Shown: piece by piece, positions 2,418 to 35,251 of the stretch
Numbering within the stretch: the stretch's first letter is position 1
Layout: each line of letters begins with the position of its first letter
Source: Gemmatimonas sp.
GTDB lineage: Bacteria > Gemmatimonadota > Gemmatimonadetes > Gemmatimonadales > Gemmatimonadaceae
Reading direction: 5' to 3'
Assembly: GCA_011390805.1 (NCBI GenBank)
Contig: JAABRT010000002.1
Coordinates: 471-64,470, forward strand
DNA length: 64,000 bases
Made by a program: the position numbers and the translations under genes
Notes under the pieces: generated by a model
The model's database searches: none
Told to the model about the DNA's origin: nothing
The model's input: only the letters and a program-made list of their open reading frames with translations

Positions 2418-4568
2418 TTACTTCGCCAGCAACTGATCCACGGCTGTCACCAGATCACGCATGTTGAATGGCTTGGCCAGCATGGGCGTGCCTGAGTCCA
2501 CATCGCGCACGAGTTGCTCGCTGGTGGAGAAGCCGGTGATGTAGAGCACGGGGAGGTCACCGTTCTGCTCACGCAGTGACCGCACAAACACAGGCCCTGA
2601 TTCCGCCGGCAGCACCACATCGCTGATCACGCCGTCAATGCGACCAGCGTGTTCGTCGTACAGTCGTCTTGCTTCGGCTGCATCTCCGGCCTCAAGCACC
2701 GTGTACTTCGCTTCACGTAAGGCCCGTGCTGCAACCCGCCGGAGCGGCGCGTTGTCCTCAACCAGCAGCAGTACGCCGCCGGCAGTCGGTGGCCTCGAGC
2801 CAACAGCCGAAATCGCGGGCGATGCGACTGAAGACGAACACGCGGGCAGAAAGATGAAAAAGGTCGTCCCGGCACCGAGCGTACTTTCGACTGTCACAGC
2901 GCCCCGCATTTGCGCTGCCAGCGACTGCACCATGGCCAGTCCGAGTCCCGTACCCTGACCTACCTCCTTGGTGGTGAAAAACGGCTCGAAGATGTGCGGC
3001 AGGACATCGGCTGGAATCCCGCTGCCGCTGTCTGCTACAGAGATCACCACCCAAGGTCCTTCGAACTCACCATCGGTGACCCGGTTTGGCCCCGAGTTGC
3101 TCCCGGTGACCTCGAGGCGCAACGAGCCGCCTGAGGGCATGGCATCACGCGCATTCAAAGCCAGGTTGAGCAGCATCTGTTCAACGGCACCAGCGTCAGC
3201 CACGGCGGTGAGCGTTGGACTTTGCAGCTCCAGTGACACTGCGATGTGTTCGCCCAGCACACGCTGCAACAGTCCGGTGGTCCGGTTCAACACGTCGGCG
3301 ATTGCAACATCCGTTACGTGAATCCGTTGCTGGCGGCTCAACGCGAGCAGTTGTCGGGTGAGCGCGCGGGCACGCCCCGCGGCATCGTGTACTTCCACCA
3401 CGTCCAGTCGGAGCGCTTCCGGCAGTTGCCGGTCGGCGAGCATGATCTCCGTGATGCCGCCAATCACCGTGAGCAGGTTGTTGAAGTCATGCGCAACGCC
3501 ACCGGCCAGCCGGCCCACGGCCTCCATCTTCTGCGCCTGAATCAGCTGGGACTCGAGGGCGCGACGTTCAGTGACGTCTTCCACAATGCCGATCGTAGAA
3601 TCCACCTCGCCCTGCTCGGTGCGGAAGTACCGGGCGCGCAGGATGATTTCGCGAACGGCGTCATCACCACCACGCAGAATGCGAAAGGCGAACTCCGCTA
3701 CCTCGATGCTGCTGGCTCTGCTGGCCGTGCGATCCATTACCAGCTGATCGCGGTCCTGTGGATGTACGAAGTCGAACCAGCCGTTGCCTTTCAGCTGCGT
3801 AGCGGTGGCTCCGAATATTCGCTCCATCGTGGCGTTGACGAACGCCACCCGTCCATCCCGAGCATGCTGGAACACGCCCACAGGCAACTGCTCGGTGAGC
3901 ACACGAAACCGGCGCTCGCTTTCAATGAGCGCCCGCTGAGCGCTCGCCGTCTCGCGGTCGGCCGCACTCCATCGCACCCAGAGCAAGCCAAACAGCGCTC
4001 CCAGACCGAGAATGGTGGCCGCCAGGATGGTGAGCGCGAGTCGGTGTCGCTCGTCATCACGCTGCTGGGCCGCACTGCTGCTCTGGGCCACCAGCAGGTC
4101 GATGGTGTCGGCGAGGAACGCGAGGTCGGTGTACGCCGAGCGGAGTTGCACCGCGGTACGGGCCCCCCGGGGCAGACGCAGCAACGAGTCGAAGCGGGCC
4201 ACTTCGTTGGCCCACCGACCGACGGCATCGCGCAGTGGCGAGTCGGGCAACGGCACCACGGTGGGCACATTGCGGGATCCCTCGCGCCCTTGCTGCCAGT
4301 CGGTGAGCAGCAGTCGTGCACGCAGAATGGCGCCCCTCACCTGACTGGTGTCCACAGACGCGTCACCGCCATCCACGCGCGAACGCAACAGGAACGCTGA
4401 GGACACCTGATTGCGCACACCATTTGCCAGCCGGACGGCCGACGCGGCACGATCCAGCTCCTGGCGTGTCTGCTGGTGACGCCACTGCAGGGCGGCGGCC
4501 GCGGCGATGGCGGCCACCAGCATGCCGGCAACGATGGGCCACGCGATGCGGCGAAGAATGAGGCTCAT
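2418..4568 (-). CDS. Hybrid sensor histidine kinase with PAS domain and C-terminal receiver
   Basis: 716 residues. Two membrane segments (about 8-28 and 177-198) bracket a periplasmic helical sensor region. A PAS domain follows (about 215-335, with FVNATMERIFG and a PAC segment ending GIVEDVTERRALE). The dimerisation/phosphoacceptor motif is GGVAHDFNNLL with His360. The ATPase domain shows the N box LNLALNARDAM near 470 and G boxes VADSGSGIP and GQGTGLGLAMV. A receiver domain (about 598-716) has Asp650 in VISDVVLP and Lys699 in LAKPF. The enzyme should autophosphorylate His360 and pass phosphate to its own receiver. No separate output regulator lies nearby. The start overlaps the stop of the upstream binding-protein gene by 4 nt, so the two are co-translated and probably form one sensing unit. 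Confidence 0.93.
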   Translation of the reverse strand: MSLILRRIAWPIVAGMLVAAIAAAAALQWRHQQTRQELDRAASAVRLANGVRNQVSSAFLLRSRVDGGDASVDTSQVRGAILRARLLLTDWQQGREGSRNVPTVVPLPDSPLRDAVGRWANEVARFDSLLRLPRGARTAVQLRSAYTDLAFLADTIDLLVAQSSSAAQQRDDERHRLALTILAATILGLGALFGLLWVRWSAADRETASAQRALIESERRFRVLTEQLPVGVFQHARDGRVAFVNATMERIFGATATQLKGNGWFDFVHPQDRDQLVMDRTASRASSIEVAEFAFRILRGGDDAVREIILRARYFRTEQGEVDSTIGIVEDVTERRALESQLIQAQKMEAVGRLAGGVAHDFNNLLTVIGGITEIMLADRQLPEALRLDVVEVHDAAGRARALTRQLLALSRQQRIHVTDVAIADVLNRTTGLLQRVLGEHIAVSLELQSPTLTAVADAGAVEQMLLNLALNARDAMPSGGSLRLEVTGSNSGPNRVTDGEFEGPWVVISVADSGSGIPADVLPHIFEPFFTTKEVGQGTGLGLAMVQSLAAQMRGAVTVESTLGAGTTFFIFLPACSSSVASPAISAVGSRPPTAGGVLLLVEDNAPLRRVAARALREAKYTVLEAGDAAEARRLYDEHAGRIDGVISDVVLPAESGPVFVRSLREQNGDLPVLYITGFSTSEQLVRDVDSGTPMLAKPFNMRDLVTAVDQLLAK

Positions 4569-9384: not shown

Positions 9385-12012
9385 CTACCGCTGTCGAAGC
9401 AGCCGCGTCCAGTTGACCGCCACGTCATAGGGGCGCGACACGTTCTCCGCATCAATCAGGTTCATCAGAAAGCGTTGACCGCCCGACGCGACATCGAACG
9501 AGCGAAACCGCCGCGGATCAACGCCGAACAGTCGCGACGGGACGCCGACGGCGGGCCGGCTGGTGGCGCCGGATTCGATCGGCACGGCCATGATGTCGCC
9601 ATTGGGCTGATAGAAAAAGAGCTCGCGGCCATCGTCGCCCCACACCGGCTCAGTACCGCCATCTACTGACACGCGGATCTGCCATGTGCTTTCCGGAAAC
9701 CCGCGCACGTACACTTCCGCGCCCCCCGACGCGTTCGATGTGTAGGCAAGCCACCGGCCGTTCGGTGACACGGCCGGCCGGTCCTCCTGAAATGGTGTGG
9801 CGAGGATAGCCCGGCGCGCGCCCGTTTCTACGTCCACTACCCAGATGTCCATACCATACGAGTCGTTACGCTTGGAATACACCACCTGCTTGCCATCGGG
9901 CGTCCATCCGCCCGCGTACTGCTGCGTGCGATCGAATGGCACCAGCACCTGCGGCTCGCCGCCGTCGGTATCCGTAACGTAGAGGTTTGGCGGTCCCTCC
10001 CAATCGGCAGAAAAGACCACGCGCGTGCCATCGGGAGACACACTCGGCGAAAACTCTGAGCGCGGTGACGAGGTCAACCTCACCGCTACGTTGCGATCGA
10101 GTTCGGCGATCCAGATGTCATACGTACTGCTCTGTGGATCGACGATCGTCACTGCCAGTCGCCGGTTGTCGACCGTCAGCCGGGCATCCAGATAGTACTG
10201 CGCATCGAGAACACTACCCGTTTGGCGCCCGTCCCGGTCGAACCATTGCAGTTGCGAGGGTGGCTCTCGACGACGGGAGATCAGCAAGCCGGTTTGGGAC
10301 ACCGAAAACCAGGCCGAACCGGTGGGCGAGAAAAAATCGACGTCATCCAGCAGGCGGATGGGCTCCCCGGTCGCTGTGCGCGTGTCGGCATCGAACGGCA
10401 GCGCGAGCAACGTTCCCCCGCGGACATACAGAATGAATCCGGAGGCGTAGACAGCGCGCGAGTCGGACGGCACGAGGACTTCCGTCTGATCGCTGTCAAC
10501 CGAGCCCACCATCAGTGTAGCCACGTTGTTTACGGGCTGCGTAAACAGAAAGTGATTGCCGTCGGGCAAAAATGACGGAAACGATTTGTCGGGATTGAGA
10601 GCGCGATTGCGCTCAAACGTTTTGATCTTTTTCAACGACGTTGCCCCGGGCGCGAGCAAGAACCAACCTTCGTTCTCCGGGCTTTCGGTGACCTCGACCA
10701 GAATTGTGCCATTGCTCGACCAGTTGCCGACGGGCCATCCCTCCGGTACCGTGGTCAGCGTTTGCGGCAGCCCGCCGGCGACCGACACTTTCTTAAGTTG
10801 GTCGCCTGCAAAGAACGCGATCCACTCGCTGTCAGGTGACCAGAAGGCTTCACGCGCACCCTCGGTGCCGTTCAGCCTGACTGCCTCGTCCTCGCTGAGC
10901 GCACGCAGCATCAGCCCATCGCCGCTGGCGTAGACAACATGGGTGCCGGCGGGCGACACCTCCGGAAAATCGACCGCGGACGCAGGAATCGTAAAGCGAT
11001 ACGCGGGGGTGTCCATCGTACCACCCGGGCGGCCGACCGCCCCCCAGGCACCGAGCGCCAGCACGAGGGTGGCCGCTGCTCCGTATGTGAACCAGCGCAT
11101 GGATGATGCGCGCGAAGCGCCCGCTGCAGCGCCGCCGCGCTGCGATTCCAGCATCGCACCGGTGATTCCAGCGACGTTGTTGCCGGTCTGAACCAGCGCC
11201 TCGGCGAACTTCGCGGCACTGCTCCACCGATCGGCGGGCAGCTTGGCCAGTGCCTTGTTCACCGCCGCCTCGACCGACGCAGGGACAGTGTCCCGCACCG
11301 CCGACAACCGTTGTGGCGGCTCCGTCAACAGCTTGGCTACCACGGCTTGCGCTGTCGCGCCGGCGAATGGTGGTTCGCCGGTCAGCATTTCATACGTCAC
11401 CGCGCCCAGCGCGTAGATGTCCGTGCGCGCGTCCACTGCGCGATCACCCATCGCCTGCTCCGGACTCATGTACTGCGGCGTGCCCAGCGAAAGCCCCGTT
11501 TGCGTCATGCGCTGTCCACCGGCTTGGCTCACCGCCAGCGCAATGCCGAAATCGGCTACTACCGCGTGGCCGCCCTGCAACAGAATGTTTTCCGGCTTGA
11601 TATCACGGTGCACGATGCCCAACGCGTGGGCCGCGCCCAAGGCGTCGGCTATTTCGCGCGCGATCTCAATGGCATCTTCGATCGGCAGCTGCAGCTCGCG
11701 CTCCAGGCGACCGCGCAACGTCTCGCCCGCCACGTACGGCATCACGTAGAAGAGCAATCCGTCGGCCGCACCGCTGTCGAGCAGCGGCAGGATGTGCGGA
11801 TGTTGCAGCTTGGCCGTGGTGCGGATCTCGCTCAGGAACCGTTCACCGCCGAGCGCCGCGCCGAGGTCGGGGTGCAGCACTTTGATGGCAACGTCGCGCT
11901 CGTGTTTGAGATCGTGCGCCAAGTAGACGGTGGCCATGCCGCCGGCGCCGAGCTCACGCTCAAGGCGGTAGCGGTCGGCGAGGGATGTGGTAAGGCGTTC
12001 AATTACGCTCAT
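9385..12012 (-). CDS. Membrane Ser/Thr protein kinase with C-terminal WD40/TolB-like propeller
   Basis: The frame is open to 12141, but the ATG at 12012 gives the standard short leader before the kinase fold (875 residues). The kinase domain is complete: glycine loop GAGGMATVY, Lys44 in VAIKVL, HRDIKPEN with Asp137, ADFG with Asp154, and GTPQYMSPEQ as the APE region. A single membrane helix lies near 306-325 (WFTYGAAATLVLALGAWGAV). The outer half has repeated PD40/TolB blades (for example SPSVSPDGTRVVFSAD and PAVSPNGRWLAYTSNASG). This architecture puts a cytosolic kinase under a periplasmic sensor propeller and is very common in Gemmatimonadota. Substrates and signal are unknown. It is divergent from the lipoprotein-aminopeptidase pair. 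Confidence 0.93.
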   Translation of the reverse strand: MSVIERLTTSLADRYRLERELGAGGMATVYLAHDLKHERDVAIKVLHPDLGAALGGERFLSEIRTTAKLQHPHILPLLDSGAADGLLFYVMPYVAGETLRGRLERELQLPIEDAIEIAREIADALGAAHALGIVHRDIKPENILLQGGHAVVADFGIALAVSQAGGQRMTQTGLSLGTPQYMSPEQAMGDRAVDARTDIYALGAVTYEMLTGEPPFAGATAQAVVAKLLTEPPQRLSAVRDTVPASVEAAVNKALAKLPADRWSSAAKFAEALVQTGNNVAGITGAMLESQRGGAAAGASRASSMRWFTYGAAATLVLALGAWGAVGRPGGTMDTPAYRFTIPASAVDFPEVSPAGTHVVYASGDGLMLRALSEDEAVRLNGTEGAREAFWSPDSEWIAFFAGDQLKKVSVAGGLPQTLTTVPEGWPVGNWSSNGTILVEVTESPENEGWFLLAPGATSLKKIKTFERNRALNPDKSFPSFLPDGNHFLFTQPVNNVATLMVGSVDSDQTEVLVPSDSRAVYASGFILYVRGGTLLALPFDADTRTATGEPIRLLDDVDFFSPTGSAWFSVSQTGLLISRRREPPSQLQWFDRDGRQTGSVLDAQYYLDARLTVDNRRLAVTIVDPQSSTYDIWIAELDRNVAVRLTSSPRSEFSPSVSPDGTRVVFSADWEGPPNLYVTDTDGGEPQVLVPFDRTQQYAGGWTPDGKQVVYSKRNDSYGMDIWVVDVETGARRAILATPFQEDRPAVSPNGRWLAYTSNASGGAEVYVRGFPESTWQIRVSVDGGTEPVWGDDGRELFFYQPNGDIMAVPIESGATSRPAVGVPSRLFGVDPRRFRSFDVASGGQRFLMNLIDAENVSRPYDVAVNWTRLLRQR

Positions 12013-29589: not shown

Positions 29590-29845
29590 ATCGCGTTGGA
29601 CGGGGGATGAAGCTGAACGTTACTACGCTCGTGACGATCGAGGGTAGGGCAGGACGGCCGGTGCAGTGTACTTATTACGGATCGGCCATGTGCGCTGTGT
29701 CACCTCGTTCCGGGATGGTGATGGCGTACTGTTCAGCGGACACCGATATTGTTCGCTCAGTGCGCCGAAATCCGGCGAATTCTCGCGAGAGCTGGCGCAT
29801 CTTCGATGCGTTGACCGCGCGCAGGCAAACCATGGAGAGTGGCGG

Positions 29846-33758: not shown

Positions 33759-33826
33759 ACGGGAGTTCGCGGGTGGCTGACAGTTCCGCCCAGCGTGCTG
33801 GTCCATCTTGACCGACCGAGCAGCAC

Positions 33827-34288
33827 CTAACCAAAATGTTCTCCTGACGCCAGCTTCTGCAGCGGGCGTTTCCATAAAATGCGAGCGCAGCGAGCTTCCA
33901 TTTCCGCCGGCGTCGCTCCGTGTGCCATGCACCCGGGCAGCTCAGGTACGTCGGCCACGAAGACCATGTCCTCGGCGCTCCAATAGACGATCAGTTCGTA
34001 CTTGTAGGCGTTCACTCGTCGCCCCCGCTCGATCGTGGTCAGCCCATAGCGCACCAGCACAGCGCGAGCCTGTCTGATTTGGCACACCTTCGCCTTGGCG
34101 CCGTCGCGCTGCAAGTTGAGCGGCTCCTCAACGCCTTTCCGTCGGAACACGTGGTGACTACCGCGCGTGCGCTTATGGAAGCCAAGGCGCCGCAATAGCG
34201 CGCAGATCGCCTCGAAGCTGACGTTCGCATCGGCACGACCTCCGAGGAGTTGCGCGAGCAGCCTGTCACGGCGTCCCGTGCCTGCCAT
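33827..34288 (-). CDS. HicA toxin fused in frame to a truncated HicB antitoxin
   Basis: 153 residues. Residues 1-83 are a complete HicA-type RNase: SFEAICALLRRLGFHKRTRG, the catalytic His45 in GSHHVF, and DGAKAKVCQIRQARAVLVRY. A linker of about 10 residues follows, then the N-terminal half of HicB (94-128): AYKYELIVYWSAEDMVFVAD followed by VPELPGCMAHGATPAE. The HicB helix and DNA-binding C-terminus are missing; the last ~25 residues (from about 129) do not fit the family. HicA normally cleaves mRNA and is blocked by a separate HicB. Here the partial antitoxin is tethered to the toxin. The gene abuts the upstream DUF5615 remnant directly. Confidence 0.8.
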   Translation of the reverse strand: MAGTGRRDRLLAQLLGGRADANVSFEAICALLRRLGFHKRTRGSHHVFRRKGVEEPLNLQRDGAKAKVCQIRQARAVLVRYGLTTIERGRRVNAYKYELIVYWSAEDMVFVADVPELPGCMAHGATPAEMEARCARILWKRPLQKLASGEHFG

Positions 34289-34387
34289 TTACCCGAGGGG
34301 CGGACATCCGGCTACGAGGGGGAGCGCCTGCTCGGTAAGAACCACTCGCGCGGCGCGCGGCAGATTCTCGTCGAGCTTGAATCGCAC
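34289..34387 (-). pseudogene. Truncated DUF5615 (PIN-like toxin) gene
   Basis: GTG at 34387 opens a 32-codon frame starting FKLDENLPRAARVVLTEQ, the exact opening of DUF5615 PIN-like proteins, whose first Asp is a catalytic acid. The family is about 110 residues; this one ends after 32, with a tail (ALPLVAGCPPLG) that does not match. It lies 2 nt after the DUF433 stop, the usual position of the toxin. I read it as an inactivated toxin gene joined to the hicA start. Confidence 0.7.
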
Positions 34388-34389
34388 GT

Positions 34390-34611
34390 CTATGCTGGAA
34401 TCGGTACGATGTGATCGTGCGCTAACGCTGCGGCGAACGCGAGTGCTGCACGAATATGCGTGCGTGTCAAACTCGGATACTCCGCGAGAATGTTCTCTTC
34501 GCTCTCGCCGGCTGCGAGGTTGTCCAAAATTACGTACACTCGCGTTCCGCGCATACAAGGCTGTCCGCCTTGGCGTCCCGCATCAACAACAATATGTTCG
34601 CGCCAATCCAT
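34390..34611 (-). CDS. DUF433 antitoxin-like protein
   Basis: 73 residues from ATG 34611; an extended frame to 34707 is not needed. The sequence shows the full DUF433 domain: WREHIVVDAGRQGGQPCMRG, TRVYVILDNLAAGESEENIL and YPSLTRTHIRAALAFAAALA. DUF433 proteins have a winged-helix DNA-binding fold and are found next to DUF5615 PIN-like toxins, as here. The adjacent toxin is truncated, so this antitoxin may be an orphan. Confidence 0.85.
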   Translation of the reverse strand: MDWREHIVVDAGRQGGQPCMRGTRVYVILDNLAAGESEENILAEYPSLTRTHIRAALAFAAALAHDHIVPIPA

Positions 34612-34658
34612 AGAAACCTGCGAAGGCTGATTCTGGATCCTGGAGCATACGATGTGCG

Positions 34659-34913
34659 TCAGGCGACGATGCGATCGTACTCGGCGTGCGATCCGATCCA
34701 AAACCACAGTAGGCCGTCCGGTGCGTCAACCGCGAGTGCTCGATAGTGAGCGCCCACGCGCACCGAGTAGAAGCGACGCACTCGCTTGAAGTGCAGCGAC
34801 GGGTGACGTGAATCCTGCTTCAGGAGCTCGAACTGCTTGTCGGCCAGCGTGCGCACGGCGGCCGGAAGCGCGTCGTAACATGACCAGAAGCTGGGGGAAG
34901 CGTGATGCGTCAA
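34659..34913 (-). CDS. RelE/ParE-superfamily toxin-like protein
   Basis: 84 residues. The pattern FELLKQDSRHPSLHFKRV followed by RRFYSVRVGAHYRALAV is that of small RelE-fold proteins that cleave ribosome-bound mRNA or bind gyrase. The core strands VRVGAHYRAL and LLWFWIGSHAEYDRI match the ends of that fold. It begins inside the antitoxin stop (4-nt overlap), in antitoxin-first order. Target unknown. Confidence 0.82.
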   Translation of the reverse strand: MTHHASPSFWSCYDALPAAVRTLADKQFELLKQDSRHPSLHFKRVRRFYSVRVGAHYRALAVDAPDGLLWFWIGSHAEYDRIVA

Positions 34914-35110
34914 AGCGGTCGGGAACGTCCGGCCGCATGGTCTGCGAGCGCTGCGTCAGCTGCGGCATCAAGCCGACCGCTCTGCGCATCCATTTCGAAC
35001 TGTTCGTCCCAGCGCGCGGCATCATATTCGCTAAACCACGCGCGAAACGTGGCGAACTCCTGATCCGACAACTTCCGAACATCGCGCTCGATCTGCTCAA
35101 CTTTGCTCAT
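34910..35110 (-). CDS. Antitoxin partner of the RelE-like toxin
   Basis: 66 residues, acidic and helical: SKVEQIERDVRKLSDQEF, then FRAWFSEYDAARWDEQFEMD. Short proteins of this kind (sometimes called addiction-module helices) pair with RelE-type toxins. The start is supported by GGAGG (complement of 35116-35120) about 6 nt upstream. The four-base overlap with the toxin gene supports coupling. Confidence 0.8.
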   Translation of the reverse strand: MSKVEQIERDVRKLSDQEFATFRAWFSEYDAARWDEQFEMDAQSGRLDAAADAALADHAAGRSRPL

Positions 35111-35251
35111 CAGTGCCTCCGTGGTGATTCGTCAAATCTACATAATCGACCGACGTTTCCCTAAGGTCACGCAATGCGGCAGGTCCCGATAAATGTGTGC
35201 TAGGCGAACGAAATGAGCCAGTTGCGATGGGGCACGGCGCATTCGAGCCCC
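35111..35251. promoter_or_regulatory. Promoter-bearing gap upstream of the antitoxin gene
   Basis: 141 bases between the antitoxin start and the imuB stop. It contains the antitoxin ribosome-binding site and an A/T-richer stretch near 35140-35160, where a promoter for the toxin-antitoxin genes is likely. No terminator is evident. Confidence 0.3.

Follow-up and report, generated by a model that had tools for sequence, protein, structure and literature searches.

Among the hicAB toxin-antitoxin classes described by Gerdes (2024; PMC10865869), class 1 has the toxin gene first, overlapping genes and a HicB of 60-90 amino acids without a DNA-binding domain. Fused modules make up classes 11 to 13 of the same catalogue: class 11 is a HicA-HicB fusion with a full HicB and a C-terminal DNA-binding domain, and class 12 is HicB-HicA, a small HicB fused in the hicBA order. 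HicA-HicB fusion proteins are also mentioned in a review of the field (PMC4826407). As such proteins are already on record in both sources, a fused HicA-HicB is not a new idea. The toxicity of HicA in B. pseudomallei requires Gly22 and His24 of the Gly-Ser-His motif (PMC3969222).

A merged reading frame with HicA and HicB homology

We analysed a 64,000-nucleotide stretch of Gemmatimonas sp. DNA, here called the window. Its ORF listing contains a minus-strand frame (34288..33827) that starts with ATG and encodes 153 amino acids. Residues 4-87 are HicA-like, residues 92-129 are HicB-like and residues 130-153 match neither. The features below were defined by comparison with C138 in the same genome, with L039, a Gemmatimonadetes MAG, and with the relatives G034, G310 and G370.

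33827..34288, minus strand: fused ORF, running from hicA through the 5' half of hicB into a tail without hicB homology (ORF listing, own-genome search)
34277..34279, minus strand: old hicA start position, ACG here and ATG in C138 and G034 (aligned start regions)
34027..34279, minus strand: what remains of hicA (residues 4 to about 87), GSHH with His45 kept; the Tyr of relatives is Cys at residue 69
34027..34027, minus strand: extra base relative to C138, L039, G310 and G370 (blastn alignments), shifting hicA into the hicB frame
33902..34015, minus strand: hicB, 5' half only (residues 92-129), with Val92 at the place of the GTG start of C138 hicB
33847..33901, minus strand: tail, similar to the centre and the right arm of the attC-like site that follows hicB in relatives
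33825..33831, minus strand: candidate right core GTTAGGT, like the consensus GTTRRRY, just past the tail; it gives the stop codon and is weak evidence

In Pfam the ORF matched HicA_toxin with E = 3.5e-4 and 21 bits, under the 27-bit cut-off, and UPF0150/HicB with E = 0.009. The weak HicA score is a trait of the subfamily, since the intact HicA of G034 reached just 22.4 bits and likewise fell under the cut-off. A search of NCBIfam gave no match, and a PDB sequence search gave spurious TAL-repeat matches to the tail and nothing else. We also searched the own genome, a draft of 170 contigs that is 88% complete, with the ORF protein. It matched one adjoining gene pair on C138, with 78% identity to hicA (E = 5.5e-39) and 83% identity to hicB (E = 3e-22). 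At the level of sequence the resemblance to HicA and HicB is real, and the match to this gene pair is decisive.

The Gly-Ser-His motif of HicA is present as G43 S44 H45. A preliminary description of the locus had reported a HicA domain with His45, joined to about the first 35 residues of HicB and followed by about 25 residues foreign to the family. The Pfam and C138 matches bear this out: the HicB part, residues 92-129, is 38 amino acids long, and residues 130-153 do not fit HicB.

The same description held that the HicB helix and a DNA-binding end were both missing, and only the first half of this claim stands. HicB homology ends at residue 129 and the positions of the helix and last strand are not homologous, which leaves the partial RNase H fold of HicB (beta-beta-beta-alpha-beta) incomplete. 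Intact HicBs of the subfamily are 71-78 amino acids long and lack a DNA-binding domain, so no DNA-binding end was lost from the window HicB. A domain of the class 11 type is absent from the ORF and from the HicB of close intact relatives. Judged from the alignments, the missing parts are the helix and the last strand of the HicB core.

Immediately upstream of this hicAB remnant, window positions 34390-35110 (minus strand) encode a DUF433 protein and a ParE-like toxin that is preceded by a small partner. After the DUF433 gene, at 34300-34390 (minus strand), the peptide VRFKLDENLPRAARVVL resembles the start of DUF5615 and is cut off just before hicA; a Pfam search with this peptide did not confirm the resemblance. 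The region from about 33770 to 35240 has the appearance of a small cluster of toxin-antitoxin cassettes in partial decay.

Separate hicA and hicB genes in paralogues and relatives

Besides the window copy, the genome holds two further hicAB pairs, the one on C138 and a more distant one on C128 (53% and 54% identical for hicA and hicB, respectively). The C138 hicA (88 amino acids) and hicB are separate, lie in different frames and overlap by 4 bases. The same overlap occurs in L039 and in G034 (hicA 92 amino acids, hicB 78 amino acids), and in G310 the two genes likewise lie in different frames.

Over about 380-420 bp the window DNA is 85-86% identical to C138 and L039. Shortly 5' of the hicB start codon the window reads GAG[C]GGGG, where the bracketed C is extra. 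Because this one base was gained at 34027, just before the hicA stop, hicA reads into hicB. Comparison with relatives, also proposed earlier, showed that they carry separate hicA and hicB genes of very similar sequence, as does the paralogue on C138, and that the window junction departs from them by a one-base frameshift; in substance, this is the outcome that the preliminary description had named as refuting its interpretation. Among 198 relatives and, in an overlapping set, 395 phylum genomes, matches to hicA and hicB were separate stretches or had stop codons between them, and no unbroken HicA-HicB fusion was found. The ATG used by the ORF sits three codons 5' of the relatives' hicA start position, which is now ACG.

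The sister copies are broken at other places. In G310 (L078) hicA has an internal TAG stop, in G370 (L079) it is reduced to its 3' third, and in L039 it lacks its first codons and has GSD for GSH, with Asp replacing the key His. Decay is therefore common in this hicAB family, and the window fusion would be one instance of it.

In G310, L039 and G370 hicB is intact while hicA is broken, the pattern that would be expected from loss of the toxin ahead of the antitoxin. On C138, unusually for a toxin-antitoxin pair, hicA is intact and an 8-bp deletion cuts hicB to 52 amino acids. In genomes of the same genus, the neighbouring lipoprotein and cupredoxin-like genes are present with different genes beyond them; none of these genomes has a clean empty site.

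The tail and the integron context

The tail matched the site behind the G310 hicB with a local score of 55, compared to a mean of 20.3 for shuffled sequences, and none of 2000 shuffles reached this score. Lower scores were obtained with the sites behind hicB in C138 (36, p = 0.001) and G040 (35, p = 0.006) and with a site close to the C83 integrase (27, p = 0.02); two further sites gave no significant match. The 21 bases identical between the tail and the G310 site occur once in the window, where 0.01 occurrences are expected with up to 3 mismatches. As a query, the site behind the G310 hicB found C138 and the window. The stretches after hicB in C138, G034 and G040 are imperfect inverted repeats with ends such as GCCGAAC/GTTCGGT or GCCTAAC/GTTGGAC; in this respect they are attC-like, an attC site having RYYYAAC/GTTRRRY cores and inverted arms.

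The tail alone, folded as DNA, formed nothing distinctive (z 0.48), a result that initially looked like a point against derivation from an attC. This result lost its weight because the tail matches the sites behind the relatives' hicB, and the odd end of the ORF was probably read from old integron attC-like DNA. Only the attC centre and right arm remain in the window copy, and the core is degenerate: the one in register with relatives reads GTCAGGA and lies earlier in the tail. Relative to G310, the alignment coordinates indicate a deletion of about 140 bp from mid-hicB to mid-attC. Complete attC-like repeats were looked for across the whole window; there were none at the locus, and the one marginal candidate lies far off, at 29612-29737.

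Two other origins of the tail were considered and rejected. As a frameshifted hicB 3' end it scored 22, where shuffled sequences averaged 22.1 (p = 0.49), and as a genomic repeat it would need a good second copy, which the tail DNA does not have in this genome.

An integron integrase (TIGR02249, 410.9 bits, cut-off 265) is encoded on C83 at 3281-4225 (L084). The hicAB pair of C138 is flanked on both sides by attC-like inverted repeats, at 10453-10529 (score 28) and 11105-11205 (score 33); in a control, shuffles of a 20-kb C138 stretch gave 0-1 matches at the lower threshold of 22. Given these flanks and the integrase in the genome, hicAB of this family appears to be a travelling integron cassette.

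An attC-like site lies close to this integrase on C83, at 2411-2533. In C138 10453-11205 (L085), hicAB is followed by DUF433 and DUF5615 genes and is part of an array of toxin-antitoxin cassettes on a different contig from the integrase. A literature search for integron integrases and attC sites in Gemmatimonadetes found no paper.

Probable decay, its alternatives and known systems

The ORF is very probably a decayed hicAB integron cassette whose genes were merged by a frameshift. The starting state would have been a two-gene hicAB with the toxin first, a small HicB without a DNA-binding domain, a 4-base overlap and an attC behind. The hicA start codon would have changed to ACG, one base inserted a few codons ahead of the hicA stop would have made hicA run straight into hicB, and a deletion of about 140 bp would have joined mid-hicB to mid-attC and removed the second half of hicB. 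The frame would have stayed open through the attC remnant by chance. The separate layout in relatives and in the same genome, the extra base, the ACG, the missing 3' half of hicB and the similarity of the tail to attC are all observed. We infer the order of events, and also that whatever protein is produced, if there is any, does not work as a toxin-antitoxin unit. The points counted against decay are a frame open for 153 codons, an intact His45, low dN/dS and a fairly confident AlphaFold2 fold.

One alternative is a sequencing or assembly error at the junction, in which case the genome would truly have a separate hicA and a truncated hicB here. The extra base adjoins a G run in a draft genome, and errors of this kind usually take the form of a single indel. 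However, the loss of the ATG would still stand, as would the deletion reaching into attC, so that the module would be damaged in any case, while the divergence of about 15% from the paralogue speaks against the collapse of two copies. We consider an error at this position unlikely.

Lineage changes in hicA were assigned by majority rule among the window, C138 and L039. The nonsynonymous/synonymous counts, which are small, were 9/6 for the window, 6/11 for C138 and 2/7 for L039, and one of the nine window replacements is the change to Cys of the Tyr kept by C138, L039 and G034. Pairwise dN/dS was about 0.22-0.24 for the hicA part and about 0.06-0.08 for the hicB part. From these small numbers, the comparison suggests that constraint on the window hicA is relaxed, not absent. 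As pairwise dN/dS is still low, either the decay is recent or constraint persisted long after divergence.

It could be speculated that a residual toxin survives, that is, an active HicA made from the upstream ATG and checked by the HicB of C128 or the N-terminal HicB of C138. The HicA domain is complete with His45, and the more distant HicB on C128 is intact; this is nevertheless quite improbable, as the C128 HicB shares just 54% identity across 37 residues, inspection by eye revealed no clear ribosome-binding site before the ATG, and there are the signs of relaxed selection.

An AlphaFold2 model built from a 13-row alignment had a mean pLDDT of 83.5 and a pTM of 0.57. It has a HicA fold (H25-34, E38-42, E45-50, E53-62, H68-80) and three HicB strands, then a tail helix where the HicB helix would be; the linker and last ten residues are of low confidence, and the mutual placement of the HicA and HicB parts is uncertain. 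The tail helix may be due to the input alignment, in which the tail had been aligned to the helices of relatives. Foldseek returned the HicAB structures 6g26, 6g1c, 4p78 and 1wv8 at high probability, with no E-value <0.001; chain 6g26_E of the B. pseudomallei HicAB complex had a probability of 0.99 and a TMt of 0.70 with an E-value of only 0.2.

This predicted succession of elements, the single open frame and the conserved His45 would suit a functional self-neutralised toxin, in which, in the manner of EzeT or the fused HicAB classes, the attached HicB half covers the HicA active site until freed by cleavage or a trigger, and there are precedents both for fused HicA-HicB proteins and for antitoxins that act in cis (PMC10865869, PMC4826407). 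On the other hand, the fusion was found in no relative, the junction comes from a shift by one base, the second half of HicB is missing, the relatives' start codon is lost, replacement changes are in excess in HicA and the tail derives from attC-like DNA, all of which make such a toxin highly unlikely. The preliminary description had left the choice between a self-neutralised fusion and a decaying module. Decay is favoured by the one-base frameshift, the truncated HicB, the signs of relaxed selection and the attC-like tail, whereas the self-neutralised fusion has no positive support. That cassette merger by frameshift and deletion into attC created a new self-inhibited HicA, with a C-terminal helix encoded by a recombination site and kept as useful or harmless, is barely credible.

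Read as a decayed cassette, the locus is a caution, in that what seems a new toxin-antitoxin fusion comes down to a single inserted base and a single deletion when its paralogue and the flanking attC are taken into account. It would also be a clear case of toxin-antitoxin cassettes wearing out in a Gemmatimonadota integron, with several sister copies each broken elsewhere.

With integron toxin-antitoxin cassettes the locus shares small toxin-antitoxin genes followed by attC-like DNA, an integrase in the genome and, on C138, an attC-like-flanked copy, although the window copy has just part of one attC. The Phd-RelE of Ralstonia eutropha, as cited in PMC4826407, is likewise a truncated toxin-antitoxin fusion and a suspected evolutionary dead end, but belongs to other toxin and antitoxin families. 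EzeT, thought to derive from a two-gene operon, also has toxin and antitoxin on one chain; it differs in its unrelated kinase toxin, in an antitoxin domain that comes first and was shown to quench, and in its presence in many strains (PMC4826407). Classes 11 and 12 resemble the window ORF in having HicA and HicB domains in one chain, whereas in the window the fusion is shared by no relatives and HicB is incomplete, which places the ORF outside the fused hicAB classes. The layouts of C138, L039 and G034 fit class 1 (PMC10865869), and the window copy differs from that class in its merged frames, in a HicB cut to 38 residues and in the extra replacements of its HicA.
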